Origin: Halichondria panicea
Taxonomy: Eukaryota; Porifera; Demospongiae; Suberitida; Halichondriidae
NCBI RefSeq assembly: GCF_963675165.1
Contig: NC_087390.1
Span: forward strand, 5,576,750 to 5,640,749
DNA: 64,000 nt
Direction: 5' to 3'
The notes under the pieces were generated by a model. That model made no database searches. It was not told where the DNA came from and saw nothing but the letters and a program-made list of their open reading frames with translations. Positions 36,344-63,578 of the stretch are shown here, one piece after another. The translations under genes were made by a program, and so were the position numbers. The stretch's first letter is position 1; each line of letters starts with the position of its first letter.

Positions 36344-38149
36344 TTAAAGGAGGTTCATTAAAGCAATGATAAGTGTTAGGCAGATCAGCGTCGTGTTGCT
36401 GAGTGTAATAGATGCATCACTATGATAGTTTCGTACTTTGTCAGATACGGACCGTTGTCCTGATTTCAGTTTATTGGTATCGGTTTTGATATTTTCAACG
36501 TCCCGTTCCAAATCCGTTACTTTCTGTTGAGTGTTTGTAGCTTTCCCTCGCAAGTTTTCCAAGCGTGTACTTACTTGATCGATATCTCCGTTCAAATCTG
36601 TTCGCAGTCCCTGTAGCCTAGTGGTATGCATTTCGTTATTGTTATTAACGGTTGCCGTCAGTTGGGTGTGGTTTAGTCTCGCTTCAGCCGTTAAACTTCT
36701 TATCAGTCCATTATTTGCACTATATCGTTCCAAAAGATCGTTATTAACTCCGTGAATTAAATTTAAAAGTGTTTCAAATATAATTGTACCGTTTTCCCTG
36801 AGGGCAATTAGATCTGATTCTGTGTTATCCACTCTCTGTAAAAGTTCAATCTTTACTTGTTGAATGGAATCAATACTGGTGTTGCTCAGAAGGTCAATCA
36901 AATGTTCCACCTTTGTGAAATTATCTTGTGCAGAAAAGGCCAGTTGCCCCAGTTCATTTTTCAGATCTCTTTCTGTGCTGTTCAAGTTGTAAATGAGCAG
37001 CTTTATGCGTTCTTGAGTGGCTGATATACGTTCAGTAAGATTATTGTGAACAGTTTCCAAAGCGAGGTCATTCTGTGTGTCGTGCATCTCGAGTTGATTG
37101 TTTAAGTTGACAATGCTCTCTTGAAGCTCAATACTCAATGCCTGTAGCATACTGTTAACCTCATGGATGCTCTGTACTAGCCTATCCTCAGTGGCATTTA
37201 AAGAATGCTGTGTCTTGTCTAGCTTTAAGAGAAGGTGGTCTCGTAGCTCACTCGTTTCGTTCGCGATAAGTTCCTTAGTTAGAATATCTGTTTCTCTCAG
37301 TGCGGTAATGTTTTCTCGTGTTTCTGTGATGACAAATTCCAAATCAGCTCTCAATTGAACCTCAGTTGAATTGATTAAAGTTTTTAGAGAAGCTGTTTGC
37401 TCAGCAATATTGCTTGCCAAGGAATTTTGCAACGCTGTTAGTTCTGAACTTAATTCAATTACTCTAGCTCCCGTTTCATTAACATCATCTCTTAACTCTT
37501 CTAGATCCATTACTGTCTGAAGTTGCCTTTCTTCTAGTTGATGAACATTTCGGCGTAACTTATCAGTTTGTATCTGTGTCAAATTTTGCTGCTCACTGAG
37601 TTCACTTTTTGTCTCTCTCATTACCTCGTTTAATTGCTCAATCTGTTCTGTGCTGTCGTTGGCCTGAATAGAAAGCTGTGAGATTGCAAAACTTGTCTCG
37701 TTTTGAATTATTTCACTGCTTTCTTGAAAATCTCTGAATTGGGCACGTAGCACTTGAGTTTCCCCGTTTGTCATATTCTGCCGCAATTCTAAATCATCCA
37801 AACGATTGGAAAATGATTCGAGAGTTTTGTTAAATTCATCCAGAGGCAGTGAGAGACCTTCCTGAATACCTCGACTCACCTCAGTAGCGATGAATTTACG
37901 CACCGTAATCCAATCCTTATCAGTCAATGAGCCGTGTTTTGGTTGCGCCATGTTCTTCTGATACAAACTGCAGCTGTACCCGCTCATTGCAATAGCTATT
38001 ACAGCTAGTATGCCAATGATGACTGTGGCCCCCACCTGAAGAATCATGCAATTGCAACGACGATCTTTTCTTTTGCATTCAGTATCGTCCTTCTCATGAC
38101 CTTTATCATCATATTTGTCCTTAATTTCGCTCTCTTTTGATGCAGCCAT
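36344..38149 (-). CDS. Double-anchored coiled-coil membrane protein, 601 residues (cluster member C)
   Basis: Single-exon ORF starting ATGGCTGCATC. A charged cytoplasmic N-terminus of about 34 residues, ending KRKDRRCNC, precedes one transmembrane helix (about 36-57). Residues 70-575 are almost continuous coiled coil (ELSEQQNLTQIQTDKLRRNV type) with many N-glycosylation sequons (NMT, NET, NDS, NLT, NIT, NTS). The C-terminus is hydrophobic (LICLTLIIALMNLL) with no charged tail, which fits a GPI signal or second anchor. Positive charges before the helix place the coiled coil outside. I do not recognise a named family; the layout is like tetherin. A canonical kB site lies 145 bp upstream of the ATG. 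Confidence 0.8.
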   Translation of the reverse strand: MAASKESEIKDKYDDKGHEKDDTECKRKDRRCNCMILQVGATVIIGILAVIAIAMSGYSCSLYQKNMAQPKHGSLTDKDWITVRKFIATEVSRGIQEGLSLPLDEFNKTLESFSNRLDDLELRQNMTNGETQVLRAQFRDFQESSEIIQNETSFAISQLSIQANDSTEQIEQLNEVMRETKSELSEQQNLTQIQTDKLRRNVHQLEERQLQTVMDLEELRDDVNETGARVIELSSELTALQNSLASNIAEQTASLKTLINSTEVQLRADLEFVITETRENITALRETDILTKELIANETSELRDHLLLKLDKTQHSLNATEDRLVQSIHEVNSMLQALSIELQESIVNLNNQLEMHDTQNDLALETVHNNLTERISATQERIKLLIYNLNSTERDLKNELGQLAFSAQDNFTKVEHLIDLLSNTSIDSIQQVKIELLQRVDNTESDLIALRENGTIIFETLLNLIHGVNNDLLERYSANNGLIRSLTAEARLNHTQLTATVNNNNEMHTTRLQGLRTDLNGDIDQVSTRLENLRGKATNTQQKVTDLERDVENIKTDTNKLKSGQRSVSDKVRNYHSDASITLSNTTLICLTLIIALMNLL

Positions 38150-38293
38150 GGTGTTGATTTTCTTGATCTCTATATAGACTAGCCACTAGTTAAAAACTGT
38201 AGACTTTAATAATGATGTGTGCACATTGAGCCTTCACTTTTATATGCAATATGCACTGCATGGCTAGCATACCAAGACTCAAGAGAGTCCCCT

Positions 38294-38305
38294 GGGACTT
38301 TCCCC
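38294..38305. promoter_or_regulatory. Canonical NF-kB site upstream of cluster member C
   Basis: GGGACTTTCCCC contains GGGACTTTCC, the classical kappa-B sequence, 145 bp upstream of the ATG at 38149. An equivalent pair sits 145-168 bp upstream of member D, with shared context (CAGGG/CTGGG and CCCCATTA). Confidence 0.6.
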
Positions 38306-38836
38306 ATTAATTGTTTGTGTTTGATTATTGCTTCATTTCCTTTGAAAGACTTGCGCAATTTTTGTGTGGGTAATTTTTTGGTAACCTTGAGGTGGGGTGA
38401 CCAAATGCTTTGGTAAGCAAGGAGCTGGTCTATAAAATGTTGTTTTAGTATTTCTGACAATAATATCTTAATTATGCACCTATGATTGCGAGTTAAAATA
38501 ATGCATGAGGGTAAATTCACTGGCTTATATATAGCTAAAAGCATGAGCAAATGCATGAGGGTATTTACTAAAAGCAGGAGTACATTAAGAGGATGATCTA
38601 AACCAGTAGGAGCATGCATACCACGTCACTATCAGACCGCATCTTAAATAGGTGCGTAGGTGTAGTACACACGTGTGGTTTGTACCTCCAGCCCACATTT
38701 AATGTTATTCATGGCTAACAGTTTACACAACTACAAGCGTTAGTGACGTGTGCGTGGGAGTTGGATAATCCTCTCCTGCTAAAAGGTTAAGCATAGGGTA
38801 TTTAGAGGGTACAAATGGATGCATGAGGGTTTCATT

Positions 38837-39190
38837 AAAAGCATGAGGGTGTTTACTAACAGCATAAGGGTATTTTATTTACTAAAAGCATGAGGGTATT
38901 TACTAAAAGCATGAGGGTATTAACTAAAAGCATGAGGGTATTTACTAGCATGAGGGTATTAACTAAAAGCATGAGGGTATTAACTAAAAGCATGAGGGTA
39001 TTAACTAAAAGCATGAGGGTATTTACTAAAAGCATGAGGGTATTTACTAGCATGAGGGTATTTACTAAAAGCATGAGGGTATTTACTAGCGTATTTAGGA
39101 GGGTATTATTTTACTAGCATGAGGGTATTTAGGAGGGTATTTATATACTAACAGCATAAGGGTAACTACTAGCTATAGGGTATTTAGCAG
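38837..39190. repeat. Minisatellite, AGCATGAGGGTATTTACTAAA unit
   Basis: About fifteen imperfect units of 15-21 bp (GCATGAGGGTATTTACT with or without AAA). Scattered earlier units lie at 38500-38580 and an inverted one at 39350-39377. The Met-Arg-Val-Phe-Thr repeat ORFs in both strands are by-products. Confidence 0.9.
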
Positions 39191-40038
39191 CAAAAGCATG
39201 GGAAAGCATGCACGAGCCTCTATTCCATGCAGGCTGCATTCGAGGCTAGTAATCAGGAGATTTGTCTTTGATCCTGTGCGACACAGACAGTATATTCTTG
39301 GCATAACTGTATACCCAATCGATAATTACCCTTGCGCTTTCCTTGCATTTAGTAAATACCCTCATGCTTTTAGTACTTGAAGCTAACTTCCCACTACGTA
39401 CAACCCTTAATTCGAGATCAGGTCGTTCATTGGGGAGCGGTTGGTCATGAAGTGTTCGAATGTTTCTAGAACTCTAGGAATTTCATGAACTCTTCGAAGA
39501 TTAACCACAATTGGTCATGAATATGATTATGCTAGAACATTCTACAGAATTACAGAGAAGAAGGCATGCAACTTAGACTCAGCAAACTATTATTAGACAT
39601 TCTGCAGGTTTGACTTTGCCACTAGATCTAAATCCTATCTTGGATGATTACATGCATAAGCCTTGATACTAAGTTCGTGTTTACTATACTCATATTCATG
39701 ATCGATTATGGACGTCCTGTGCTGTTAATTATTGGTCCTTGGACCGAGTTCTACATTGGAAGTTGACATGCAGGACAAGTGTATGAATGGCCTGGCCTCA
39801 AGACTATAGGCTAACCCATCATGATGACTATAATAATTTATCTAGCCCAGCAACTGAGCATGGTCTCAAACAGGCAGCTCTCGAAGAGGTTTTATTACTG
39901 CGGAGTAGCTATAGTACCCTCATTTAAGACATTGTGAATTTGTTTACATGTATTCTTCAACTGCAAGAGCGTGATCTGTTTATTCTGTTTTTAATCATGT
40001 TGTCGTATAAATTTTACAACAAAAAATGCATGGCTGAT
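39191..40038. other. Intergenic, no gene seen
   Basis: Holds one inverted minisatellite unit (39350-39377) and a pair of GGTCATGAA-containing short repeats near 39445 and 39512. No exon supported. Confidence 0.4.
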
Positions 40039-40908
40039 TTACAAGTAGACACACAACACAGTGACTAGTCCCACAACTAGTGAGTATTTGCTCATCAGTA
40101 CGACACCCGATGACAGTTCTAGCTCATGAACACGACTCTCCAGATTACTCAGGTCTGTCTCTACTTGATGCAGTTCTGATTTTGCTAGCGTGGAATTCTC
40201 AATCTCGTCAAACCTGTTTCCAACATCAATTCTGAAATTATCAATATCTGCTCGAATCTTCTCTGTTTGAATTTGCCGTTGTTCTAGTTGTGCTAGCGTG
40301 GAATTCTGAATCTCGTCAATTCTGTTTCCAACATCGTTTCTTAAATTGTCGACGTGTACTCGAATCTGCTCCTCCGTTTGATTTTGCCTTTGTTCTAGCT
40401 CATAGACATTTATAAGTAGCTCATCAATTTGTCTCTTTGTCGAATTTTGCTGTTCCACCATCTCTCTTATTACCTCGTTCAATCGTTCAATCTGTTCCCT
40501 GCTGTTATTTACCTGAATAGATAGCTGTAAAATCACATTCAGTGTGTTATTTTGGCTGCTCTCTCTGAAGTTATCTCGTAGCTCTTCATTGTTGAGTTCT
40601 AATTCAGCCAAACGATTCAATGTGAGATTGTTGTTGTATTCGTTCATGAAAGAGATTTGCTTATCAGGCAATGGGGTATTGTTTTGCTGCTGCCAATTTA
40701 CCACACTCATTACCAAAGCTGCAATGGCGATTAATGCAACAACTGCCACTCCCAGATACTTGAGACAATTTGTACTGCTGCTGCTGCAGCGTCCATGGCT
40801 TTTTTTGATATGCGTATCAGATGTAGATGTCTCTTGGTCGTTTGGTTTCACTTTATCGTAAGTGTCTTCAAAGTCACTCTCTTTAATATGTCCAGCCACA
40901 CCAGCCAT
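40039..40908 (-). CDS. Double-anchored coiled-coil membrane protein, 289 residues (member D)
   Basis: The start MAGVAGHIKE (ATG at 40908, context ACTATGG) is preferred over an in-frame ATG 24 codons upstream. The cytoplasmic segment is acidic, with KKSHGR before the helix. The transmembrane helix is at about 50-71 (LGVAVVALIAIAALVMSVV). The ectodomain is coiled coil with sequons (NNT, NLT, NNS, NST) and two internal repeats of the type NSTLAQLEQRQ / NSTLAKSELHQ. The C-terminus LMSKYSLVVGLVTVLCVYL is hydrophobic after a Ser-Ser-Gly, so it may be a GPI signal. This C-terminus and the 3' flank are nearly identical to those of member E. kB sites lie 145-168 bp upstream. Confidence 0.8.
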   Translation of the reverse strand: MAGVAGHIKESDFEDTYDKVKPNDQETSTSDTHIKKSHGRCSSSSTNCLKYLGVAVVALIAIAALVMSVVNWQQQNNTPLPDKQISFMNEYNNNLTLNRLAELELNNEELRDNFRESSQNNTLNVILQLSIQVNNSREQIERLNEVIREMVEQQNSTKRQIDELLINVYELEQRQNQTEEQIRVHVDNLRNDVGNRIDEIQNSTLAQLEQRQIQTEKIRADIDNFRIDVGNRFDEIENSTLAKSELHQVETDLSNLESRVHELELSSGVVLMSKYSLVVGLVTVLCVYL

Positions 40909-41052
40909 AGTGATAATCGATAATCTTGTTGGTTGAATTTGGAATTTGTATTCACACTGCAGGTATAACTGGTTGGGCAATAGCTTTGTGTTTGGTAGTT
41001 AAAATATGAAACTAGCACACTCTGATCTGGAAACTGCTGAAGCTTCTAGTTG

Positions 41053-44071: not shown

Positions 44072-45427
44072 ATGGACTAGTTGCATTTAGAACCAGGATT
44101 ATGAAGTAGCTTATTATCTTACTGCATTGTACATGTAGTTTGATAACAAAGTTAGTTTACAATCTTGGTTGTGAAGACAACTATTCCACAGCGCTTCCTA
44201 ATATTGAAACTTCATGCCAGTTATCTAACAACACCAATAATTATGGTGAGAAAAGGAATGTATAAGACATTTAATTGTGGATATTGTTCCACTGTTGTTG
44301 TATGAACAATCCTACACACTTGTGCTATTCAGTGGCATAGAAAGGGGGAGCAAATCTTTCTATAATTATTAAGTAGATATATTTATTATGGTCAAGGGTG
44401 TATCGACGGCCAAAGGCGGGAGAGAGCATGCAACTCAACATCTAGACAGTGGTGTAGGAAACAATTTATCAATGGGGGGCTCTAAGGGAAAAAAGTACGG
44501 CTATCTACATAGTGTAGCTTGATAAGTCATCTAGCCTAGAAAGAGGGTAGACGGGCGTCGTCGCCCTCCCTGAAGGAGGACGGGAACCAAGCCTATCAAC
44601 AGTTTTGTTCTGGCTGTTACGCAATAGCATTATGAATATCATTATTTTTAAGTGGGTGTTAGCCAATAACGATGAATATCACTTGTGTTGGCCACGCCTC
44701 TCAGTCAATCCAGTGTGTGCAAAATTCACACGTGGTAAAGTTAAGTGGGTGTGATCAAATACTGCAATCTGATTGGAGCCGGTGGAATTCCACCGGCAGA
44801 ACAAAACTGTAGATAAGCTTGGGTCCCGTCCTCCTTCAGGGAGGGCGGCGACGCCCATCTAGAAAGAGGGGGGGCTCCAGCCCCCTGCCCCCCTTTCCTA
44901 GATACGTGTGACACAGACTTTTCCACAGTTTATAGACCCCCGTATTTTGGAATTTAATGTATAGTTATGGATCGTGCTAGTGAGTCTAGGACTTCGAACG
45001 ATGAGATATATATAATTATATATAGAGGAGAGAGAGGACTACGCCATCAAGACGTATGAATTTCGGTGATATCGAGTTGCATGCCATCTTTCCTATATAC
45101 CCCCTTTATATGGCATACAGAAATGGGGAGGGTATATATATCCTCTGCCAGCAGTTCCTCTCACTATACGTTGACTGCAAGACAGCCCCTTCCTCCCGTG
45201 TGGACAGTACAGTGAGCTCTGAGCTGCTGTTAGCCTCGTCCCCACGCCTATATTTTATCTAGTCTATGATCATGAAGGAGGCAAAGCTGCTGTATGTTCA
45301 TATGTTGGTGAAACCGACCAACGCCGAGGGTTCTAATTAGTGCTCTAGTTTTGATATGTTCACACTCCCTCAACATCAAATGCAAATAAATTACGTTACA
45401 AAACTGTACTTTACAAAAAGTGGCTAA
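44072..45427. other. Intergenic with a hairpin element
   Basis: Arms at 44551-44615 and 44797-44862 (GGGCGTCGTCGCCCTCCCTG, GAAGGAGGACGGGA and complements) form an inverted repeat of about 310 bp. Its right flank (GGGGGGGCTCCAGCCCCCTG) suggests nesting in another element. An open stretch at 45056-45262 (LCQQFLSLYVDCKTAPSSRV) has protein-like composition but no recognised domain or clear splice sites, so I do not call it a gene. Confidence 0.5.
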
Positions 45428-46093
45428 TTACAAGTAGACACACAACACAGTGACTAGTCCCACAACTAGTGAGTATTTGCTTATCAGTATGACACCCGAT
45501 GACAGCACGTTATCTATCTCATCAACACGACCCTCCAAATCACTCAGCTTTGTCTCCACGCCAAGCAGCTCCGATTTTGCTAGCGTGGAATTCTCAATAT
45601 CACTGAATCTGTTTGCAACGTCGTTCACAAAGCTGTCGATATTTGCTTGGATCTGTGCAAAATTACCCGAAGCATTGGTTTTCAAAGCGTTCAAATCAGA
45701 CGAAATTCGATTGAACTCAGCAGTCACGTTTTGCCTCAGGATATTCAGAGCGACTTCCACCTCGTGGTTGTTGGTACCGTTGAAAACCTCGATGACAGTA
45801 TTGGATTGTTGTTGAGCTTCTATCTCCACTTCAGCGAGCCTGATGTGGTTGGTAAGGTTACGATAGAGATTGAAGCCTGCTATACCAGCAAGACCGAGCA
45901 CTAGTGCAAACAGTAGCACAATCAGCAGCAGAGGTAGTGAGCACCTACAACACGATCTTTGCTTTAATGGTGGTTCTTCTTCTTCTTGGAATTGGTAGCT
46001 GCTAGGTCGTGCTACTGGTCGTGGTGTACGGCTTATGTCCGTTTTATCAGCTGCTTCATCAGCCATTTGATCAAAGTCATCGTACTCACTCAT
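45428..46093 (-). CDS. Double-anchored coiled-coil membrane protein, 221 residues (member E)
   Basis: Single exon. The acidic then basic cytoplasmic N-terminus (MSEYDDFDQM ... PPLKQRSCCRC) precedes a strong transmembrane helix at about 52-74. The short ectodomain has sequons (NLT, NGT, NVT, NAS, NST) and coiled coil. The C-terminus LISKYSLVVGLVTVLCVYL follows Ser-Ser-Gly and matches member D almost exactly, while its N-terminal half is unlike D. That pattern suggests exchange of 3' ends between members. A partial copy of its N-terminal half lies at 50165-50515. No clear kB site was found upstream. Confidence 0.8.
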   Translation of the reverse strand: MSEYDDFDQMADEAADKTDISRTPRPVARPSSYQFQEEEEPPLKQRSCCRCSLPLLLIVLLFALVLGLAGIAGFNLYRNLTNHIRLAEVEIEAQQQSNTVIEVFNGTNNHEVEVALNILRQNVTAEFNRISSDLNALKTNASGNFAQIQANIDSFVNDVANRFSDIENSTLAKSELLGVETKLSDLEGRVDEIDNVLSSGVILISKYSLVVGLVTVLCVYL

Positions 46094-46484: not shown

Positions 46485-48665
46485 TCACTTAGTGTAATAT
46501 CTGATCAATGCAAAGCATATAATTAGGAAGACGGCAAGCGCAGCTATAATACTTGCAAATGAAGCAACCGCACCTATTCCTGAGCTTTTTAAAGCATCGA
46601 CTTCATCCTCAAGATTGCTAATACTTGCACTGTGTTGACTCAGCAAGGCTGTCTTCGTATCTTGTGCACTCGCCACTTCATCAATTCTTTTGCTCAGATT
46701 TGTTCTTGCGTTGTTAGGTTCGTTAATGTTGCGAAGGACATCATCTCTAATGACATCCGTCCTCTCCCTCACCTCAGAAATATTTCTCGAAGTATCCACT
46801 CTTAGCTTCTCTATACTTGCACCCTGTAGTTGTACACTTGTATTCACTGCACGCAGCTGTGCCTCTAAAGCTAGTAGCTCACTCTCCGTTACGAATCTAG
46901 TAATGTTAGTTCCGAGGCCATATGCATCTCTTATTGTTGCATTGAGAATATTAATTTGATTTGAGTTTGCAGCAATGGCTTCTTGGGTCATCGCAAACTT
47001 TTGTCCTATGTCCCTGATGCTTGAGTTCAGTCGCTCCTCTTGTTCAGCTACCTTTCCATCCAGTGCAGCAAAACCCTCGGCTGTAGTTTCTTGAATCGTC
47101 TCCAACTTCTGTCCTATGTCTCTGATACTCGAGTTCAGTCGCTCTTCTTGTTTAACTACCTTTCCATCCTGTGCAGCAAAACCCTCGGCTGTAGTTTCTT
47201 GAATCGTCTCCAACTTCTGTTCTATTTCCCTGATGCTCGAGTTCAGTTGCTCCTCTTGTTCAGCTACCTTTCCATCCAGTGCAGCAAAACCCTCGGCTGT
47301 AGTTTCTTGAATCGTCTCCAACTTCTGTCCTATGTCTCTGATACTCGAGTTCAGTCGCTCTTCTTGTTCAGCTACCTTTCCAAAACCCTCGGCTGTAGTT
47401 TCTTGAATCGTCTCCAACTTCTGTCCCATGTCTCTGATACTCGAGTTCAGTCGCTCTTCTTGTTCAGCTACCTTTCCATCCAGTGCAGCAAAACCCTCGG
47501 CTGTAGTTTCTTGAATCGCCTCCAACTTCTGTCCTATGTCTCTGATACTCGAGTTCAGTCGCTCTTCTTGTTCAGCTACCTTTCTATCCAGTGCAGCAAA
47601 ACCCTCGGCTGTAGTTTCTTGAATCGTCTCCAACTTCTGTCCTATGTTCCTGATGCTCGAGTTCAGTCGCTCTTCTTGTTCAGCTACCTTTCCATCCAGT
47701 GTAGCAAAAGCCTCGACAGTAGCTTCTTGAATCATCTCCAACTTCTGTCCTATGTCTCTGATGCTCGAGTTCAGTCGCTCCTCTTGTTCAGCTACCTTTC
47801 CATCTAGTGCAGCGAAACCCTCGGCAGTAGCTTCTTGAATCGTCTCCAACTTCTGTCCTATGTCTCTGATACTCGAGTTCAGTCGCTCCTCTTGTTCAGC
47901 TACCTTTCCATCCAGTGCAGCAAAACCCTTGGCTGTAGTTTCTTGAATCGTCTCCAACTTCTGTCCTATGTCCCTGATGCTCGAGTTCAGTTACTCTTCT
48001 TGTTCAGCTACCTTTCCATCCAGTGCAGCAAAAGCCTCGGCAGTAGCTTCTTGAATCGTCTCCAACTTCTGGCCTGTGTCTCTGATGCTCGAGTTCAGTC
48101 GCTCTTTTTGTTCAGCTACCTTTCTATCCAGTGAAGCGAAACCATCGGCATTGGTTTCTATTTCCTCACGATTCTGCATAGTTTGATTTGCTTGATTAGT
48201 CTGAGAATACTGAAGCTGTGCCTCTTGCTTAGTATAGTTGGTTTGCAATTCTGAAAACCTGTTGTTCAGATCGGAAATGTTTTGTTGTAAAGCCTCCAGT
48301 TGTTGAAATACCTCCACTGCTGTACCCGTGCCTCTTGAATTATTCTCTAGATGTTCAAGCCTTTGATTAAATTTTGTGGCAATTACCACAATTGAAATTC
48401 CAATTCCCACAACAAGCACAACAGCCACAACAGCTACTTTGAAAGTAGTACCCTTCAGCAATTTCTTGCAATCTCCACACCCTGGAGCTTTATTGGGTTT
48501 GCTTACATCCTTTCTTCCAACAGCTTTGTCGGGATCGATACATTCTTTCTCACTTGCTGCAGCTTTATTGGGCTCACTACCTTGGCTATTAGCTGTATTG
48601 TTCGAGGGTACTCCAATTGTACTAGCAAGAGTACTATCCAAAATGTTTATACCATCATTTGACAT
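46485..48665 (-). CDS. Membrane protein with eleven 36-residue coiled-coil repeats, one in-frame stop (member F)
   Basis: One reading frame of 727 codons runs from ATG at 48665 to 46485, broken only by TAA at 47991-47993. Other repeats have CGA or CAA there, so one C-to-T change from CAA is enough. The N-terminus has a hydrophilic tail of about 74 residues and a transmembrane helix at 75-97 (VAVVAVVLVVGIGISIVVIA). The centre has eleven repeats of consensus TAEGFAALDGKVAEQEERLN plus SSIRDIGQKLETIQET. One repeat lacks ALDG-type residues (12 bp deleted). The end has a second hydrophobic helix (FASIIAALAVFLIICFALI) followed by RYYTK, so a true membrane span rather than a GPI signal. It could be a null allele, a young pseudogene or an assembly artefact. 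Confidence 0.7.
47005..48160 (-). repeat. Coding 108-bp tandem repeats of member F
   Basis: Eleven head-to-tail units of 108 bp (36 codons) with high identity; outer units are more diverged. 36 is not a multiple of 7, so the coiled coil must contain a stutter or hendecad. Three related units occur in the broken member at 51180-51450. The opposite-strand ORFs (SYLSIQCSKTLGCSFLNRLQ type) are shadows of this repeat. Confidence 0.9.
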
Positions 48666-49059: not shown

Positions 49060-49395
49060 AGAGATCGAACTTGTGTTCTACTTTTTGCTCTTCTATGCAA
49101 AGCATATCTAAGTAACCACTACAAGCAAAGCGAATCCTATAATAGAAGCAACCCGGCGCATTTATCCTAGAGCTTTTAGCATTACAAGCCGTTGTGCTTG
49201 AATTACCATGAAAGCAACTGGATGATAAAGCTGTGAAGAATGTAACGTTACCACTATGGCAACAATCTCAAACAGTTTGCTCTTCAACCATGCATGCAGG
49301 TTTCTGTGGCTTGGCTAGCACCATTGTTGCTACTATTACTATCAGTTGTACTGTCCTTGTCTTCCCCGCACATTTATTTTTCAGGATCCATATCC
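49060..49395 (-). pseudogene. Relic of a member-G-like gene with the middle deleted
   Basis: The minus strand starts ATGGATCCTGAAAAATAA (49395; stop after five codons), then MCGEDKDSTTDSNSSNNG, then KSKLFEIVAIVVT, matching the N-terminal tail and start of the membrane helix of member G. It then jumps to a stretch at 49075-49150 matching G's C-terminal helix (AAAGCTCTAGGATAAATGCG). The entire ectodomain is missing. Confidence 0.7.
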
Positions 49396-49639
49396 ATAAT
49401 CTCCATAGCTATTCTTTTCGTCCTTTTTTCTTACAATTGTGCCAGTCTTCTCTGAGTTTAGCCTTGACTCTTTTTTGTAGTTTATATAATTATACCACAC
49501 TTATGTCACCACAAATTGATCTCATTGGTCAACAGCTATATATCAGGATATATAGAATATTAGCATACAGCCCCAGGCATGCACAGTTTTTCAAGTTGTT
49601 TTTTAGTTTTTTCATTTGTTCAAGAAAGTAAGCAAAGAG

Positions 49640-50164: not shown

Positions 50165-50515
50165 TCCAGACGAAGTTCGATTGAACTCAGCTGTCACGTT
50201 TTGCCTCAGGATATTTAGAGCGACTTCCAGTTAGTTGCTGGCACCGTTGAAAACCTCGATGACAGTATTGGATTGTTGTTGAGCTTCTATCTCCACTTCA
50301 GCGAGCCTGATGTGGTTGGTAAGGTTACGATAGAGATTGAAGCCAGCTATACCAGCAAGACCGAGCACTAGTGCAAACAGTAGTACAATCAGTAGCAGAG
50401 GTAGTGAGCATCTACAACACGACCTTTGCTTTAATGGTGGTTCTTCTTCTTCTTGGAACTGGTAGCTGCTAGGTCGTGCTACTGGTCGTGGTGTACGGCT
50501 TATATCCGTTTTATA
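50165..50515 (-). pseudogene. Partial copy of member E
   Basis: Matches 45700-46055 nearly base for base, covering KTDISRTPRPVARPSSYQF, the membrane helix and the start of the ectodomain. It lacks E's first 16 codons and everything after the NGT...NHEVEV region, where an 11-bp deletion shifts the frame. No start codon of its own is credible. Confidence 0.8.
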
Positions 50516-50659: not shown

Positions 50660-52535
50660 TCACTTCGAACAGAATATCCAACCAACCACTGCAATAATAA
50701 TGAGCACAGCGAATCCAATAGTAGCAAATGTAACCGCACCTATCCCAAGACTTTTTAAATAAATAGATTCGCTTTCAAGATCGCTAACTTTCGCACTGTG
50801 TTGGCTCAGCAAGGCTGTGTTTGTGTCCTGTTTAGTTTCCACTTCATCTATTCTTCTGTTCAGACTTGTTCTTGCATCGTTAAGTTCGTTAGTGTTGCGA
50901 ATGACATCATCTCCAATGACATCGAGTGAGTCTTGTGTCCTCTCTCTCACCTCAGAAATATTTCTCGAAGTATCCACTCTTAGTTTCTCTATACTTGCAC
51001 CCTGTAGTTGTACACTTGTATTCACTGAACGCAGCTGTGCTTCTAGTAGCTCACTGTTCATTATGAATCTAGTAATGTTAGTTTCGAGGTCGTATGCATC
51101 TCTTATCGTTGCAATGAGGATATTAATTTGATTTGTGTTTGCAGCAATGGCTTCTTGGATCATCTCAAACTGTTGTCCTATGTCCTTGATGCTTGAGTTC
51201 AGTCGCTCTTCTTGTTCAGCTACTGTTCCATGCAGTGCAGCAAAAGCCTCGGCTGTAGCTTCTTGAATCGTCTCAAACTTTTGTGCTGTGTCCCTGATGC
51301 TCGAGTTCACTATCTCCTCTTGTTCAGTTAACTTTCCATCCTGTGCAGCGAAAGCCTCAGCAGTAGCTTCTTGAATCGTTTCAAACTTTTGTGCTGTGTC
51401 CCTGATGCTAGAGTTCACTCTCTCTTCTTGTTCGTCCACCTTCTCATCCAGTGCAGCGAAACCCTCGGCAATCCTTGTTATTTGCTCACGATTCACCACT
51501 ATTTTATTTCCTTGATTCGTTTGAGCAGTTCCAAGAGACTGTAGCTGTGCTTCTTGTATCTTGTCTTTGGCTTGCAATGCTAAAACCTTGCTGCTCAAAT
51601 CAGAAATATTTCGTTGGATAGTCTCCAGCTTTTGAATGTCAATTTTCAATGTTGCACATCTGCAATTTGGGTTATTCTGTAGATTATCAATCCTTTGCAC
51701 TAATTGGTTTGACTTCTGTTCTTGAAGTACTACGAAAGCAGTAACTACACCTATGCATACAGCTACAGTGGCGTAGCCAGAGGGGGGCAGAGGGTTCTCC
51801 AGCACCCCCCTCTGGCCTCAGACTCTGCTCCACAAGTTCATTTTACTAACTAGCTAGCTGATATGAGATCGAGAGTAACTAGAGCTCTATCAACTCAAAA
51901 CTCCACCTCTAACTATCTAGCTCCACCTCCAAATATTCATTCCAGTCAGTGCACATGCGCAAAGCCACGTGCTGAGCAGACCAAGGTCCCCCACAGAGTT
52001 GCAGACTGTTAATGTTCAGCAGCTATCACCATCATCATCATGAGTATTTTTCCGTTGAGCCCAGTTCACAGAGCAGCACTGCAACTGCAAGTGGCTTGCC
52101 ACCCTGTCCTGCTAATTCACAAGCAGAACCTGGTTAGCAGCTGCATGATTTAATTGTCACAACTCAAAACAATGCATTTTATAGGACATCTTCAAATGAA
52201 GATGTGGCTTAACCACCAGTACCCTCAAAGTAGCAGTACCCTCATTTCTTTAGCCAGATTGCGTTAGAATCAATCTCAGAGCATGTAACAACAAAAATTT
52301 TCTGGGGGAGTGCCCCCACCCCCATTGGTAATAAGCACCCCCCTATCTCAAATCCTTGCTACGCCCCTGAGCTATGAACAATAATAATATTATAACCACT
52401 ATGACGACAATCTCAAACCATTTGCTCTTCAACCGGGTTTTTGTAGTTTGGCTACCACCATTGCTACTACGTGTACTACTATCTGCAGCTGTACTGTCCT
52501 CGTCTTCCCCGCACGTTTTTTTTTTCAGAATCCAT
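50660..52535 (-). pseudogene. Coiled-coil membrane protein split by a transposon (member G)
   Basis: Minus strand from ATG 52535 (MDSEK...): a hydrophilic tail (CGEDEDSTAADSS), then KSKWFEIVVIVVIILLLFIA. There a 604-bp element (51766-52369) interrupts the transmembrane helix, which resumes as VCIGVVTAFVVLQEQKSNQ. The ectodomain follows with a CRC motif, NIS sequon, three 36-residue repeats of the F type and a C-terminal helix TFATIGFAVLIIIAVVGWIF before CSK. The A10 run just after the start (52516-52525) also puts the ATG out of frame with the tail by one base. The downstream ORF (to 51805) is otherwise open, so the damage is recent. A GGGGTTTCCC site is 170 bp upstream. Confidence 0.8.
51766..52369. 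mobile_element. hAT-like element inserted in the membrane helix of member G, 5-bp duplication AGCTA
   Basis: Ends CAGTGGCGTAGCCAG and CTTGCTACGCCCCTG, flanked by AGCTA (51761-51765 and 52370-52374). Removing it and one AGCTA restores a continuous hydrophobic helix. Internal sequence near 52035-52130 has a Ser/Thr-rich open stretch that may derive from a transposase first exon. Confidence 0.9.
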
Positions 52536-52704
52536 GTTGGTAGTCTCCATAGCTATTCTTTTCGTCTTTTTTACTTAGAATTGTCAGTGGTTCTGAGTTT
52601 ATATTAGCCTTGACTCTTCTTTGTATAATGTAGTTTATATATGAAGTGCTTAGGTGTAGTGTACTAGTGGTTTGGCTCCTAGTTATAGCTGTTTACAATA
52701 ACAG

Positions 52705-52859: not shown

Positions 52860-53147
52860 GTTATTGGCTTGTAATGCTGAAAATTAATGTTGCTCAAGTC
52901 AGATACGTTTCTTTGTAAGTTGTTGAATGTCGATTTTCAACATTGCACATGTGCAATTTGTATATAGATGTTCAATATTTTGCTCTAGTTGGTTTAATTG
53001 ACCTCCGTGCTTGAAAACAATACTATGCATGAAGCTGTAAACACTTACAGTATAGCAACCACACATACATAGAACTGTGACTATGACAATCTTACTCTGA
53101 AACAAGGTTTCTTTGCTACTAGTATCATTATCGTATCCATCGATCAT
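52860..53147 (-). pseudogene. Truncated cluster member (H)
   Basis: MIDGYDNDTSSKETLFQSK is followed by a membrane helix (IVIVTVLCMCGCYTVSV) and CTCAMLKIDIQQL, which matches CRCATLKIDIQKL of member G. The frame then shifts; NVSDLSN is readable in another frame at 52880-52900 before similarity ends. Only the N-terminal quarter remains. Confidence 0.6.
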
Positions 53148-53229
53148 AATTACGAATTCACATCCTCAAACTCCAAGCATATTCTTTTTGTCTGGTTTAT
53201 TTTGACATGGATCAAATATCGGCTAGTTG

Positions 53230-53675: not shown

Positions 53676-55031
53676 TTATAAGTCAAAATACTTAGTTAAC
53701 AATAAACAACACGAAGTAAATAATGCAATTATAAAAGTGCTTCCAATGTCTCTAGACCCTGAGGACCGAACACTTTCTAGTAGTCTATTGAATCTTTGGT
53801 CATGTGCATTAGTTTGCTCTGTTAGGGAGACTTGCTTTCCCTCAATCTGTGTTACTTTCCTATCATGATAATCAAGACGCTTACCTTGTGACTCAATTTT
53901 TGCTTTAATTGTTTCGATCTCTCTGTTCTGACTATCAATACTCGTAGCGAAATGTGTGTTCTGTTTATTCAACTTTTCAATTCGATCGTAAATGTCTTTC
54001 GTGTTCTGTTTTGTTCTGCTCACTTTCTTGGAAAGATCATCAATGTTCTTTCTGAGCTCTTTGTCAGTCACTGATTTCTCTGATTTCAATTTGTCTACTC
54101 TTTTGACAATGGCTTCAAGTCGAGCTTCATCATTAGCCATCTGTGTTTTCAGCTCTTGAAGCAAAACACTATTTTCTCGAGTTTTGACTTTCAGTTCTTT
54201 AAAACCAGTCGTAAGCGATTGTATTTTGTCCTTTGCTGAGGTAAGAGTCAGTTCCATTTGTTTGCTTTTAGTGGAGAGTTCGCTGACTTTGGCTTCAGTA
54301 TTATTGTGAGTTTCTGTAAGTTTTTGGTCAAGAGAATCAATTAATTTGTTGATATGCATTGTCAGATTCATCACAGTTGAATTTTGTTGCTGTTTAATCT
54401 CATTTATCAACAGCTCAAACTTCGCATCTGTCTGTTTTTGGATTTTTTCCCCCACTGCGTCAAGAGCCAGCTCCATTTGTTTGGAGAGTTCGCTGACTTT
54501 GGCTCGAGTACTGTTGTGGATTTCTGTAAGTTTTTGGTCAAGAGAATCGATCGATTTGTCAATATGCATTGTCAGATTCATCACAGTTGAGTTTTGTTGC
54601 TGTTTAAGTTTGGTTACCATTAGCAACATTCGCTCATACTTCGCATCAGTCTGCTTTTGGTGTTCTCTCAAATCTATCATTTTAAGCCTCATTGCATCAT
54701 TCTCAATTGCTTGGGTAGCATTTGCTTTCACAATCGTTTCTTTTAAACTATTGTGCGCTTCACGTGACCTGACTTCACTCATCACGAAGAATACTACCAC
54801 AGATACTAGCACAGTTGCTGCAGCTATTCCAGCTATTTCTCTTCGATTAAGATTCTGCAACTTGTTAAAAAATCGCTTCTTGTCCACTGCAAATTTTTTG
54901 CATTGGGTCCACATTGATTTCTGTTCTTTTTGCTCAGATTCCTTGTCTTCCATTACAAAAGTGAGCTCTCCATTGCTAGTGTTCTCCGTGTCAGAGAGTG
55001 TCAGCTTAGTGTAGTCAGTAGCTTGAGTCAT
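53676..55031 (-). CDS. Double-anchored coiled-coil membrane protein, 451 residues, MTQATDYTKL subfamily (member I)
   Basis: Single-exon ORF, the longest intact member of this subfamily. The cytoplasmic tail of about 65 residues (MTQATDYTKL ... KKFAVDKKRFFNK) precedes a membrane helix at about 66-85. The ectodomain is coiled coil with an internal duplication: KQQQNSTVMNLTMHIDKSID occurs twice, each followed by SLDQKLTE(I/T)HN(S/N)T. There are numerous N-glycosylation sequons. The C-terminus STFIIALFTSCCLLL is hydrophobic after SSGSRDIG and ends KYFDL, so it is a second anchor or GPI signal. Function unknown. It is the best template for the broken copies J and K and the short copies L and M. 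Confidence 0.8.
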   Translation of the reverse strand: MTQATDYTKLTLSDTENTSNGELTFVMEDKESEQKEQKSMWTQCKKFAVDKKRFFNKLQNLNRREIAGIAAATVLVSVVVFFVMSEVRSREAHNSLKETIVKANATQAIENDAMRLKMIDLREHQKQTDAKYERMLLMVTKLKQQQNSTVMNLTMHIDKSIDSLDQKLTEIHNSTRAKVSELSKQMELALDAVGEKIQKQTDAKFELLINEIKQQQNSTVMNLTMHINKLIDSLDQKLTETHNNTEAKVSELSTKSKQMELTLTSAKDKIQSLTTGFKELKVKTRENSVLLQELKTQMANDEARLEAIVKRVDKLKSEKSVTDKELRKNIDDLSKKVSRTKQNTKDIYDRIEKLNKQNTHFATSIDSQNREIETIKAKIESQGKRLDYHDRKVTQIEGKQVSLTEQTNAHDQRFNRLLESVRSSGSRDIGSTFIIALFTSCCLLLTKYFDL

Positions 55032-56161: not shown

Positions 56162-57234
56162 TTAATAACCAACACAAAGTAAATAAATTGGTAACGCAAA
56201 CATCATTAGCCAATGTATACTTCCAGTGACTCTAGACCCTGAAGATCTCACACTTTCTATTTGACCTTGTAGTCTATTGAGTCTCCGGTCATGTTCATTA
56301 GTTTTCTCTGTTAGGGAGATTTGCTTTCCATCAATCTGTGTGACTTTCTTGCCTTGCTGATCAAGACGTTTATCTTGCGATTCATATTTGACCTCAATAG
56401 TTTCAATATCGCTGTTTTAACTATCGATTCTCGTAACTAAATTTTCGAGTTCTGTATCGACTCTTTCAAATCGTTTGCGATATTTTTCTGTGTTTTGTTC
56501 TGTTGTGTCCATTCTCTGCGAGAATTCATTGATGTTCTTTCCAACTTCTTCGTCGGTATCTGACTTATCTTGCTTTAATTCGTCAACTCGTTTGACAGTG
56601 TGCTCTAGTAGGGTTGCATTGTTAGCTACCTGTGTTTCCAGCTGATGAAACAAATCACTGGAGATCTTGGAAGCTTTAGTTATGTTTTCTCGAGTGCTGA
56701 CTTCTAGTTCTTTTAAACCTGATTGTATTGTGTCATTCACTGTTGTAAACTGTAGTTCTCTTTTCTTGGTGAGTTCGCTGATGCAAGCTAGAGCTTCTGT
56801 AAGTGACGTATTAAGAGAATCAATTACTTTCGATTGGTAAATAATCAGTGATTGCATTGACTCAAACTTTGCTTCAGTCTGCTGATGATAGTCAATGATT
56901 TTCTCTCTCAAAGCTTCAATTTCAATTGCTTGTGTAGTGTTTGCTTTCTCACTCTTTTCTTCCAAACTAGTATGCACTTCCAAAATATAGACTGCACTTA
57001 CTACGATTATGATTAGCAAGAAAAGTCCTAACACAGTAGCAATTGATCTTCGATTATTATGCACCTGTTAAGAAATTGCTTCATTGCAAATCGCTTGCAT
57101 TGAGTCCACTTTGATTTCTGTTCTTTGCGTTCAGATTCCTTGTCTTCCGTTACAAATGTGACATGCTCCTCTCCATTGCTAGTGTTCTCCCTATCAGAGA
57201 GAGCCAGCTTAGTGTAGTCAGTAGCTTGTGTCAT
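56162..57234 (-). pseudogene. MTQATDYTKL-subfamily member with a frameshift and a nonsense codon (member J)
   Basis: It starts MTQATDYTKLALSDRENTSN. At about 57058-57070 a 1-bp loss (AACAGGTGC for AACAAGGTGC) moves the membrane helix (SIATVLGLFLLIIIVVSAVY) and ectodomain to another frame. TAA at 56417-56419 replaces the CAA of member I (SIDSQNREIETI). Downstream the frame stays readable to TAA at 56162, including KRLDQQGKKVTQIDGKQ and a C-terminal hydrophobic stretch ending LLCVGY. It has one GlnThr-rich block fewer than I. Two lesions and otherwise good conservation point to a young pseudogene. Confidence 0.8.
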
Positions 57235-58688: not shown

Positions 58689-59983
58689 TTAATAACGAAC
58701 ACAAAGTAAATAATGGATGCAAAGCATAATTATTAGCAAAGTTATGCTTCCAGTGTCACTAGACCCTGCATGAGGACCTCACACTTTCTAGTAGTATATT
58801 GACTATCTGGTCATGTACATTAGTTTGCTCTGTTAGGGAGACTTGCTCTCCCTCGATCTGTGTGATTTTATTATCATGATGATCAAGACGTTTACCTTGT
58901 GACTCAATTTTTGCTTTAATTGTTTCAATCTCTCTGTTTTGACTATCAATACTCGTAGCTATGTTTTTATTTAGGTTTTCAACTCGATCGTAAAGGTCTT
59001 TCGTGTTCTGTTTTGTTCTGTCCACTTTCTTCAAAAAATCATTGATGTTCTTTCTGAGCTCTTTGTCAGTCACTGATTTCTCTGATTTCAATTCGTCTAC
59101 TCTTTTGACAATGGCTTCAAGTCGAGCTTCATCATTAACCATCTGTGTTTTCAGCTCTTGAAGCAAATCACTATTTTCTCGAGTTTTGGTTTCCAGTTTT
59201 CTAAAACTAGTCCTAAGCGATTGTATTTTGTCATTTGCTGAGGTAAGAGTCAGTTCCATTTGCTTGCTTTTAGTGGAGAGTTCTCTGACTTTGGCTCGAG
59301 TATTACTGTGAATTTCTGCAAGTTTTTGGTAAAGAGAATCAATCGATTTGTCGATACGCATTGTCAGATTCATCACAGTTGATTTTTGTTGCTGTTTAAC
59401 CAATAGCCTAAACTTTGAATCAGTCTTTTGGATTTTATTCTCCACTGCGGTAACAGTCAGTTCCATTTGCTTGCTTTTAGTAGAGAGTTTGCTGACTTTG
59501 GCTCAAGTATTGCTGTGAATTTCTGCAGGTTTTTGGTAAAGAGAATCAATCGATTTGTCGATATGCATTGTCAGATTTACTGCAGTTGATTTTTGTTGCT
59601 GTTTAAGCTCAGTTAACATTAATACCACTAGCTGATACTTCGCTCTCAAATCTTCCATTTCAAGCCTCGTTGCATCATTATCAATTGCTTGAGTAGCACT
59701 TGCTTTCACAATCGTTTCTTTCAAAGTATCATGCACTTCACGTGACGAGACTAGACTCATTACGATTAGCAAGATTAGCAAGATGATTCCTAATAACACA
59801 GTAGCAATTCCAGCAATTCCAAGATTCTTCTTGTTACAAAAATTGCTTGCATTGGGTCGACTTTGATTTCTGTTTTTTGGGTTTAGTTTTCTTGTCTTCC
59901 ATCACAAGAGTGGTGTACTCTCCATTTCTAGTGTTCTCCATGTCAGAGATTGGCACCTTAGAGTATTTAGTAACTTGAGTCAT
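58689..59983 (-). pseudogene. MTQATDYTKL-subfamily member with three lesions (member K)
   Basis: ATG at 59983 (MTQVTKYSKVPISDMENT). A frameshift near 59840-59850 leads to a stop at CAATTTTTGTAA; the membrane helix (GIATVLLGIILLILLIVM) is in another frame. TGA at 59503-59505 replaces the CGA of NTRAKV. Near the 3' end, at 58768-58772, a 4-bp insertion (CCTCATGCAGGG for CCTCAGGG) shifts the C-terminal hydrophobic anchor (ITLLIIMLCIHYLLC) out of frame; its stop would be TAA at 58689. The rest aligns with member I, including both NLTM blocks. Pseudogene. Confidence 0.8.
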
Positions 59984-60476
59984 TTTGTGTGGCTATGTTT
60001 GCTAGTCAACTATCACAGTCCAAAATTAATGGTTTAATTTAACTGTTGTCTGTCAGCTTATATAAGCCATCGGATATTCCCCCTTGGCTGACACAGCCAA
60101 ATTCCACGCGTATACCTCGCTTGCGCATTCGCACCGAGGCATAATAATTGTTACTCATGCCTGGTACTAGTGCAGACTTCTCCCAGGCCACTTGTGCATG
60201 AATCACATGAACCGATTAGTGGGCCATCGTAGGGCTATATATACATAGGCTGAGCTGTAGCATCATTGTCTGTCAATGTGGAGCCCAAGAGTGCAATGTT
60301 GTGAAATCAATAATCATATTCACAGACAATTTGCACAACTCAACAAACAATAAACAGCTTTTAAACCAATACTAGCACTAATATATTTCCAATCAAACAG
60401 TTTGACTCAGTGACGCATGGTTAGGTTCTAAATGCATATATGCTACGCCTGTACACCATTTTGACCACACATGTGG
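59984..60476. other. Promoter of K and spacer before L
   Basis: The minus strand carries GGGGGAATATCCGATGGCTTATATAAG at 60055-60082 (kB-like sequence then TATA box). No gene in the remainder. Confidence 0.5.
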
Positions 60477-61019
60477 TTATTCGTATAAACTTTCAAGCTC
60501 TGTATCAACTCTTTCAACTCGAAGGTGAGGGTAGTTTGTGTTCTGGTCTGTTGCATTCATTTCTTTAGAGAGATTGTTGATGTTCTTACGCTTTTCGTCT
60601 CCTTTACATTTCAATTCGTCTACTCTTTTGACAGTGTGCTCATTGACAAGCTGAGTTGCATTGTTAGCTCCCTGTGTTTCCAGCTGATGAAACGAATCAC
60701 AGGAAATCTTAGAAGAGATGTTTTGTCGACTCATGCTGACTTCTTGCTGTGAAGAAACCTCAGTTGTATTTGGCTGAAGCTTTGCATTATAGACTGCACT
60801 CACCACAAATAGCAAAAATATTACTACTGTAGCTATTCCAGCTAGCCGATTAAAGTTTTGCACCTTGTTAAGAAATTGCTTCATAGCATCCATTGCAAGT
60901 CGCTTGAATTGGGATATCTGTTCTGATTCCTTGTCTTCCATTACAAGAATGATATGATCCAGCTCTCCATTGCTAGTGTTCTCCCTAGTCAGCTTAGTGT
61001 AGTCAGTAGCTTGAGTCAT
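60477..61019 (-). CDS. Short single-anchor member, MTQATDYTKL subfamily, 180 residues (member L)
   Basis: MTQATDYTKLTRENTSNGEL, then a basic patch, a membrane helix at about 62-79 (AGIATVVIFLLFVVSAVY) and a short glycosylated ectodomain (NTT, NIS, NAT), ending ELESLYE. It lacks the long coiled coil and the C-terminal anchor, so it would be single-anchored. Member M ends at the same point (ELENLYE), so the truncation may be inherited and functional, for instance as a regulator of long forms (inference). Its upstream region lost the GGGAATATCC element kept by I, J, K and M. Confidence 0.6.
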   Translation of the reverse strand: MTQATDYTKLTRENTSNGELDHIILVMEDKESEQISQFKRLAMDAMKQFLNKVQNFNRLAGIATVVIFLLFVVSAVYNAKLQPNTTEVSSQQEVSMSRQNISSKISCDSFHQLETQGANNATQLVNEHTVKRVDELKCKGDEKRKNINNLSKEMNATDQNTNYPHLRVERVDTELESLYE

Positions 61020-62937
61020 TTTGAGTAGCTATCTCTTATTCTATGATGATAATGGTATGGTGTAGGCATGCTGTGGTTGTTGATAATAATTATTATAAGT
61101 ATATTCAATGGCTGACAAAAGCAAAGATTGGGCTGTCTGTAATCAGTGGACTGGACTACTGGACTGGACTGGACTGGACTGGACTTTGACTTGACTATTG
61201 CGACACCAATTACATTCCTTTTCCTCATAACAAGACTACAATGACAAATGATTGTAAAAACTTAACACATGTACATCTAGCTACATTACAAAACACAAAA
61301 AAATGAATGCTTGTCTTTAGGTTTGCATGATGGAAGAGCATGTTTAGCTTTCTGTATAGGAGGACAGGTAACTGGCCTAGCTGGTTGAGACCATAATGCA
61401 TTCTTGCTTAATTACTAGCAATGTACTGCATAACTTATGGGTATATAAATGCCACAATTTATTGTAATACTAAAACAAGTGATTGAGCCCCCAAAAATGT
61501 ATAGCTAGTATCTAACAGCTATGTAGTGCTATTCCCATTCTACTGTTAATAATTATATTCACGACATACAAGTTAATTCCTGTAAATTGGGGTCACATGA
61601 TACTAGCTTAGCTTTCCATTTTTCAAATTCCAAGCGCGAGGGCGGCCTGAGAATTGTCTAGAGCGGGGAAGTACTTGTTTGATTTGTCATGTGATATTCT
61701 ACAAAGCTGGACAACATCACGCGAGCAGAAAACATTGCTGAGTCAGGTAAGTTTTTTTACATGAAGAAGTTATCAATGTATAAAAATACATCGACTAAAT
61801 TACTATAGTTACTGCATGAAATAGGAGTGTTTAGCTTCCCAGTATAACTGCTTCAAGTGGCTTGCCTGCATGCATGTGTTGCTGCAACTGAGCTGCTGAT
61901 ATAGACAGTCGCATTTAGGCTGCATGGATATACAGTTCTGTGACACATAGCTCACAAAACTATGGAATCTCAAGGATATAGCTTCATTCAGCTGTGGTGC
62001 AAAGGCTAATTGCAAAGCCTCTCCCTTCCATTTATTAATAGGTCGATTTTCACCCCCAAATTAGGAGAAAAATTGGTTTGGAATGAGGCAGAATTCAATC
62101 TTGTTACATAACGATTAACGTGACAAGACTTGTGTGAAGTACTTCCCTCATTGTCCAAAGTCCAGTTGATACCATCTTCAAAGGAAGTGCGGCCTGTGGG
62201 TGATCGAGGCTAGCATGTGTAGTACTTTTTTATGAAAGATGAAGGTTTTTTAACGAATGACATGCAATTCCTTCATTATCATGTACAGCTAAGCTGCATG
62301 GTAAAGGCCAATTCATTCATTATCATGTACAGCTAAGCTGCATGGTAAAGGCCTTTAATGGAGCAACTTAAGATTGATGGAGTAACTTAAAATGTTTCTG
62401 CACCTCCTCCTAATAGTATAATTATAGAATGTTCGCTCTAGCTCTTGTCTCTCAGTTGACATTAGGGTTCGTGTTTTAATTGTTAGTTGGCATGCCGTAA
62501 CGCATCAACCTGGACTAGAAACACAATGCAGATAACATAAACAAGTTAGAGTGTACTTCTCGTCTGTGAACTGACAATATAGATCCACAGACATCGTCGT
62601 GTCATGCTTATGCAAATCTTTTGTCCATAATTCAGTGGGGGGACTCAGAGGCTTGAGCACCCCCCCTGGCCTGCATGGCCTCACAGACAACAACCATAAC
62701 TTATTATCAGAACTGGTCTAGCTATAACTGCAGCTCTATATCGTATTCTGTATGCACACTATATACACTTGTAACGCAATGCTGGCTCTAGCCTCATTCC
62801 CAATTCAAGTCAATTTTCTAGAAAGACCCCAGCCTGTCTAAATTGCATTACACAACAACAGACACAAATCAGCAATAAATCTGATAAAACAATCAGTATA
62901 ATGCTAACTACAATTTAATCGTAAAGTTATGGTTCAC
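61020..62937. other. Intergenic with relic upstream blocks
   Basis: (GGACT)n lies at 61150-61186. 62283-62360 is a perfect tandem duplication of TTCATTATCATGTACAGCTA...GGTAAAGGCC, and the following GGAGCAACTTAAG matches distal upstream blocks of I, J and M, so a lost gene copy may have stood here. A fragment with a hAT-like look (GCCTGCATGGCC, GGGGGG) is near 62635-62680. No gene seen. Confidence 0.5.
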
Positions 62938-63104
62938 ATTTCTATTTGACCTAATAGTCCTTGAGTCTATGGCCATGAGCATTAGTTTTCTCTGTTAAGG
63001 TAGACTTGTTTTTCATCTGTTTCAGTTTGATTTTATTATCATGATAATCAAGACGACTCATTTTTTGCTATAAATGTTTCAATTTCTTTGTTTTAACCAT
63101 GTTG
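62938..63104 (-). pseudogene. Decayed 3' part of member M
   Basis: Minus strand KEIETFIAKN, then GATTATCATGATAATAAAAT and GAGAAAACTAATGCTCATGG, corresponding to REIETIKAKIES, DHHDNKITQI and EQTNVHDQ of I and K, in broken frames after the stop of M. Confidence 0.65.
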
Positions 63105-63578
63105 CTATTCGTATAAATTTTCGAGCTCTTTATCGACTCTTTCAAATCGTTTGTGAGGGTATTTTGTGTTCTGGTCTGTTCTGTTCACCTCTTTAGAGAG
63201 ATCCTTACGCTTTTCGTCTGTATTAGATTTCAATTCGTCAACATTTTTGACAGTGTGCTCAAGTCGAGTTGCATTGTTAGCTACCTGTGTTTCCAGCTGA
63301 TGAAACGAACCAATTCCAGTCTGATTATGGTAGTCATTGAATTTCTCTCTCAAAGCAGCTTCAGTGTGCACTTCACTTGAAGAGACTGCACTTATTACTA
63401 ACACAGTTACTAACACCGTTACTGCAGCTATTCCAGCTATTTTTCTTCGATTATTCTGCACCTTGTTACATTCAGATTCCTTGTCTTCCATTACAAGAAT
63501 GACATGCTCCAGCTCTCCATTGCTAGTGTTCTCCCTATCAGAGAGTGTCAGCTTAGTGTAGTCAGTAGCTTGAGTCAT
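63105..63578 (-). CDS. Short single-anchor member, MTQATDYTKL subfamily, 157 residues (member M)
   Basis: MTQATDYTKLTLSDRENTSN, acidic tail, a basic stretch NNRRK, a membrane helix at about 48-66 (IAGIAAVTVLVTVLVISAV), then SFHQLETQVANNATRLEHTV and an end at ELENLYE. Long-form sequence continues as debris after the stop (62938-63104), so M descends from a long member. L ends at the same codon. Coding potential is intact, but it may be a pseudogene whose lesions all lie beyond the stop. Confidence 0.55.
   Translation of the reverse strand: MTQATDYTKLTLSDRENTSNGELEHVILVMEDKESECNKVQNNRRKIAGIAAVTVLVTVLVISAVSSSEVHTEAALREKFNDYHNQTGIGSFHQLETQVANNATRLEHTVKNVDELKSNTDEKRKDLSKEVNRTDQNTKYPHKRFERVDKELENLYE

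Follow-up and report, generated by a model that had tools for sequence, protein, structure and literature searches.

Does a sponge genome encode membrane rods of the tetherin type? The question is raised by a cluster of minus-strand genes on contig NC_087390.1 of Halichondria panicea, at positions 36344 to 63578 of the 64,000-nucleotide stretch that was analysed (positions 5,576,750 to 5,640,749 of the contig; hereafter the window). A preliminary description of this DNA had counted about fifteen such loci and credited them with the layout of vertebrate tetherin (BST2/CD317). The tandem minus-strand paralogues are real and number 14, but the full layout is intact in only four of them. An even chance is given here to the reading that the products are glycosylated rods with few cysteines and an anchor at either end, that they come in graded lengths, and that they bridge membranes or hold them at a distance. 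The loci would form a tandem family, probably specific to the lineage, whose products are type II membrane glycoproteins in which the short tail would be cytosolic and an uncleaved signal-anchor would span the membrane. The N-glycosylated helical ectodomain, poor in cysteine, would assemble into an oligomeric rod whose far end would be fixed by a second hydrophobic segment, through a glycosylphosphatidylinositol (GPI) anchor in some copies and a second membrane helix in others. The length of the ectodomain would have been altered by tandem duplication of 36- or 70-residue units that fit the helical periodicity.

The four intact members are single open frames, here called C, D, F, and I. C (36344 to 38149, 601 residues) has a tail of residues 1 to 34, a transmembrane (TM) helix at about 35 to 57, a coiled-coil ectodomain with 16 N-glycosylation sequons and one cysteine, and a hydrophobic C-terminal end. 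D (40039 to 40908, 289 residues) is more likely to begin with the ATG at 40908 than with the listed TTG at 40980; its tail contains the motif YDKV, its TM helix lies at about 52 to 70, and its ectodomain, with eight sequons and no cysteine, is followed by SSG and a hydrophobic tail. F (45428 to 46093, 221 residues) ends in the same way and carries YDDF in its tail, a TM helix at about 53 to 72, and an ectodomain of 124 residues with five sequons and no cysteine. I (53676 to 55031, 451 residues) carries YTKL in its tail and a TM helix at about 66 to 85; its ectodomain has seven sequons, no cysteine, and an internal 70-residue duplication, and SSG again precedes the hydrophobic C-terminal end. 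The preliminary description had ascribed the layout to E and G as well, whereas E is interrupted by an in-frame TGA and G lacks an ATG and a family-type tail.

Hydrophobic helices were called where the mean Kyte-Doolittle (KD) value of a 19-mer exceeded 1.2. By this measure, an N-terminal helix is present in C, D, F, F′, E, G, I, J, K, M, N, and the fragment 53k, and a C-terminal hydrophobic segment in C, D, F, E, G, I, and J, so that the C-terminal segments do score as hydrophobic anchors. The tails ahead of the first helix measure 34 to 76 residues (C, D, F, E, and I), several have basic and cysteine-containing residues just before it, and a type II orientation appears probable. A Tyr-x-x-hydrophobic motif occurs in three of five tail lineages (D, F, and I; 0.56 expected, P 0.007, for a motif picked after the tails had been viewed) and also in the tails of J, K, M, and N. 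Five of the eight C-terminal ends examined (D, F, E, I, and J3) have an SSG that is unique in its protein and lies 24 to 33 residues from the C terminus; C, G, and K3 have none there. Seven ends were scored for GPI signals by two crude rules of the authors' own making. The strict rule is passed by C, D, F, and J3 and the relaxed rule by these four and G; the relaxed rule also passes four of five reference GPI tails and 6 of 138 control open reading frames (ORFs). In E and G the last helix is followed by a short basic tail (RYYTK and CSK, respectively). The contrast between GPI-like and charged C termini drawn in the preliminary description is seen here likewise. With either kind of end, GPI-linked or helical, the protein would be doubly anchored, provided that the segment is retained.

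The part between the anchors is rich in sequons, which number 77 against 19 reversed motifs in 11 ectodomain segments. This excess indicates that the middle part probably lies in the secretory lumen or outside the cell. Sequons exceed those of shuffled sequences at P<0.05 in 8 of the 11 segments, and F (0.06), N (0.10), and K3 (0.96) do not reach significance; the segments are related and ten of E's sequons lie inside its repeat array, so these tests are not independent. The four intact members carry 5 to 16 predicted ectodomain sites each. Cysteines are scarce in the ectodomains, with none in D, F, E1, E2, and I, one in C, and two in G. A hydrophobic periodicity of 3.5 to 3.6 residues is found at P<0.05 in 187 of 304 overlapping windows from nine segments, and AlphaFold2 models of D and I are mostly helix, which is near-continuous. 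The KD values, the sequon counts, the periodicity, and the models support the architecture first described, in which a short charged tail leads into an N-terminal helix and a helical ectodomain rich in sequons is followed by a C-terminal hydrophobic segment.

The rods differ in length by repeat units. In self-comparison, D (z 6.1), the second half of E (z 31.6), and G (z 8.7) repeat at a lag of 36 residues; this lag is weaker in C (z 4.2), where lags of 148, 18, 130, 14, and 7 score equally or higher, and F has no notable lag of this length (z 1.4). In I the lag is 70 residues (z 8.1). Tandem Repeats Finder recovers the corresponding 108-nucleotide unit in 2.0 copies in D, 10.8 in E, and 3.0 in G, and every complete unit of E contains one sequon. 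Since 36 residues make ten turns of an α-helix and 70 residues make ten heptads, added units would preserve the helical face. Fully helical ectodomains would measure about 18 nm in F, 29 nm in D, 48 nm in G, 51 nm in I, 77 nm in C, and 89 nm in E (halves added); through unit duplication the cluster may thus provide rods between about 18 and 89 nm long.

Substitution patterns point to coding function. The ratio of nonsynonymous to synonymous substitution rates (dN/dS) ranges from 0.09 to 0.81 and never reaches 1 in the 17 comparisons for which it is defined, several of which overlap or use broken copies and none of which was formally tested against 1; an 18th is undefined because it has no synonymous change. 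Values below 1 throughout imply that the loci are, or recently were, protein-coding genes. The preliminary description had further suggested a role in defence or allorecognition. In a test of low power there was no sign of diversifying selection to support it, and such a role is possible as a guess. The birth-and-death evolution and differing ectodomain lengths that it had proposed are borne out by the anatomy of the cluster, with tandem birth and decay side by side.

Ends and rods also appear to have been exchanged. Between D and F, 15.3 of 31 synonymous sites differ in an ectodomain stretch, whereas none of the 23 in the final 25 codons does (P 4e-5 by a Fisher test in which the counts were rounded and the region was picked post hoc). 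The anchor-coding ends (40039 to 40116 in D and 45428 to 45505 in F) are 97% identical beside this diverged ectodomain, which suggests gene conversion over the anchor as the simplest reading. The N-terminal halves of F and D are unlike, so ends and rods would have recombined. Matches by blastp and tblastn tie 12 of the 14 loci into three groups (C/D/F/F′, E/G/53k, and I/J/K/M/N). Between these subfamilies blastp similarity is modest (e.g., 2.5e-5 for D and I), and as judged by sequence, "family" stands for the cluster, with common descent shown within groups only.

The layout is that of tetherin in several respects, namely a short cytosolic tail, one TM helix, an N-glycosylated helical coiled-coil ectodomain, and a second anchor at the C terminus. 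The tail of tetherin carries a tyrosine motif, as do the tails of some cluster members, and F, with its 124-residue ectodomain, is the member nearest to tetherin in size. The cluster differs in that it is multi-copy, has more sequons and ectodomains of up to about 600 residues, and ends in GPI anchors that are only putative. No sequence match to tetherin was listed in Pfam or the PDB, a negative of little weight because known tetherins are poorly conserved among themselves, as described in excerpts of PMC10617486. A further difference concerns the disulfide-linked dimer of tetherin, a feature that is missing in D, F, E, and I, whose ectodomains have no cysteine. According to excerpts of PMC3185764, tetherin needs this dimer and at least one disulfide is required for its activity. 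Loss of the disulfide would accordingly be evidence against mechanics identical to those of tetherin. The tetherin gene lies between CILP2 and PLVAP, and neither of these was found when nine other ORFs of the 64-kb window were scanned; the matches were a kinase, 3HCDH, and a sub-threshold Death domain. Homology to tetherin, as a claim of membership, was rejected on the lack of a listed sequence relation, the cysteine-free ectodomains of D, F, E, and I, and the lack of a CILP2 or PLVAP neighbour in the window.

Likeness of layout can nevertheless carry function. The excerpted parts of PMC3185764 attribute tethering to the topology of tetherin and not to its sequence, and report that an artificial tetherin, in which unrelated TM, coiled-coil, and GPI parts were joined in the same order, restrains virus release. 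The layout can therefore suffice, and tetherin-like action is possible for any doubly anchored rod. The sponge proteins share the order of parts with this construct, which differs in being engineered and disulfide-dimeric via a transferrin-receptor part, whereas they are natural and mostly cysteine-free. Tetherin dimers act axially, with one anchor pair in each membrane (PMC3715405, in excerpt). By analogy, the most likely action of the sponge rods would be to bridge two membranes or to set their spacing with one end in each surface, which would be tetherin-like by layout and not by sequence. A bolder version holds that a tandem battery of glycosylated rods with two anchors, no disulfides, and a graded series of lengths, some GPI-ended and some TM-ended, arose in a non-vertebrate animal independently of tetherin, and that these rods trap budding viruses or vesicles at the cell surface; this we regard as improbable. 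In the excerpts of PMC3185764, only a minor isoform of one other protein is said to have the double-anchor topology of tetherin. A multi-copy family that is natural, unrelated to tetherin, and built on this layout would test the repeated evolution of the layout, the need for a disulfide, and the role of rod length. Should they turn out not to tether particles, the rods would still be a kind of surface rod that is undescribed within the searches made.

Several points weigh against doubly anchored rods. Only 4 of the 14 loci are intact, and the other ten are broken, fragmentary, incomplete, or without the second anchor. Profile comparison of the three subfamilies by hhalign gave probabilities of 3.6, 12.0, and 23.8, which leaves common ancestry unsupported. 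Neither GPI rule is passed by E or I, and G fails the strict one; the strict rule passes just one of the five reference GPI tails, together with 2 of the 138 control ORFs, and the relaxed rule also passes one of four reference non-GPI tails (tail-anchored helices). K3 has fewer sequons than its shuffles. The AlphaFold2 models have low predicted template modelling scores (0.26 for D and 0.31 for I), and their C-terminal ends are poorly scored. A neutral-drift simulation of the anchors does not discriminate and, as its substitution numbers were chosen by the authors, is not used as support: from E to G, a 19-mer at KD ≥1.6 was kept in 1744 of 5000 replicates and at ≥2.65 in 180 of 5000, and the count from J3 to I was 308 of 5000.

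The strongest alternative, although clearly the less probable, is that the proteins are surface spacers or adhesion fibrils, with both ends in the membrane of the same cell or with only the N-terminal end of importance, that build a coat, a pore diaphragm, or a layer spacing cells from one another. Type II coiled-coil glycoproteins that form rods of differing length would suit this role, and PLVAP and TMCC(aT)/CCDC194 are likewise type II coiled-coil membrane proteins. In the excerpts of PMC10617486, both are said to share the layout of tetherin without needing a second anchor, and an avian isoform of TMCC(aT) is said to have a second hydrophobic region. The cluster differs from them in that no Pfam match to them was among those listed, and in that the second hydrophobic end is the rule in its intact members; it is kept in all four of these and in E, G, and J, and a simple spacer would not need it. 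Two open frames do lack it, M (60477 to 61019, 180 residues) and N (63105 to 63578, 157 residues), which retain an I-type tail, a TM helix, and a short ectodomain. Both frames end at "...LYE" before any second anchor, with none in frame in N; they look truncated, and decayed I-like DNA lies 3′ of N.

A residence in the secretory pathway, e.g., as luminal tethers or scaffolds of the Golgi or endoplasmic reticulum (ER) with both ends in organelle membranes, is rather unlikely. Coiled-coil rods with membrane helices, tyrosine-based sorting motifs in the tails, and the helix with a short basic tail that ends E and G would agree with it, but the dense sequons and a lineage duplication with decay would be unusual for a housekeeping scaffold, and no reliable Golgi or ER family was among the Pfam matches listed. 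These matches cover ten proteins at E up to 1 (the best 25 of 40 for the second half of E and the best 25 of 35 for K3) and include neither BST2, of which we take the library to contain a model, nor PLVAP. Seven Pfam families above the curated cut-off were listed for the repeat half of E (e.g., Vps27_GAT-like, DASH_Dad4, and Sec10_N); they were set aside as scores summed over the 36-residue repeats, six of the seven being without a single passing stretch.

A decaying cluster with little function left, whose intact members survive without a specific role, is quite unlikely, since the ten damaged or incomplete loci that favour it stand against four long frames with both ends intact and dN/dS values below 1 that reach 0.09 for the tail and TM helix of F and F′.

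Other searches gave no closer relative. A C/D/F profile found no match in the PDB at 0.1, F alone found four weak matches, none of them tetherin, and fold comparison of the D model with the PDB gave two uninformative matches (E 3.4 and 7.8). Scans of viral contigs with three members (I, F, and C) confirmed no relative, and a viral origin was set aside on this ground; a scan of prokaryote genomes with I confirmed none either. No tetherin-like family from sponges or other invertebrates was among the entries listed in literature searches, with the term "tetherin" also matching "tethering". The preliminary description could name no family, and none known was found among the matches listed in Pfam and the PDB. 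It had also asked whether profile searches would assign the proteins to some unrelated family already known, which none did (Pfam, PDB, viral contigs, and prokaryote genomes).

The remaining loci of the cluster document its decay. E (46485 to 48665) has two anchors, separated by the TGA at 47991 to 47993, and 11 of the 36-residue units by tblastn. Its paralogue G (50660 to 51817) has both hydrophobic segments and three units. A mobile-element origin of the N terminus of G was not supported, as the upstream DNA matched the window over 47 nucleotides only, at 77%. F′ (50231 to 50512) is a gene fragment with the N-terminal tail, the TM helix, and the start of the ectodomain, and it matches F at 97.8% identity in a stretch of 93 residues. 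The fragment 53k (52899 to 53165), which contains a hydrophobic stretch, is related to G (60.7% over 28 residues). Two further fragments, at 49250 to 49459 (49.2k) and 52395 to 52600 (52.5k), match each other at 79% over 217 nucleotides; tblastn with the end modules of E and G did not list them, and they were placed in the E/G group by eye. J (56162 to 57234) and K (58759 to 59983) are paralogues of I that stops or frame changes have broken into three open pieces each. J keeps the tail, TM helix, ectodomain, and C-terminal hydrophobic end, and the open frame of K ends in SSCRV.

Two repeat features lie between the genes. A 21-nucleotide tandem array of about 13 copies is located at 38821 to 39143 between C and D, and a mobile-element-like pair of 70-nucleotide inverted repeats, 90% complementary and 174 nucleotides apart, at 44548 to 44861.

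Elsewhere in the window, two minus-strand copies with 14-residue PPQEEQ-type repeats (29825 to 30493 and 34697 to 35176) are each preceded by a TM-like stretch, near 30989 and 35391, respectively, in which a hydrophobic helix is followed by a basic stretch and which is possibly spliced to the repeats. These loci are read as separate from the rod family. The N terminus of C matches these helices (at 35.4k and 31.0k) weakly by tblastn, and the matches were assigned to other loci and left uncounted. A Death-domain match on the plus strand (1639 to 2034) remains below the curated cut-off (20.2 versus 22.6 bits), and a partial 3-hydroxyacyl-CoA dehydrogenase lies on the minus strand at 25993 to 26385 (Pfam 5.2e-16). 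A protein kinase domain is encoded on the plus strand at 14274 to 15011 (Pfam 2.8e-22), with a coiled-coil-like frame upstream of it at 13175 to 14089.

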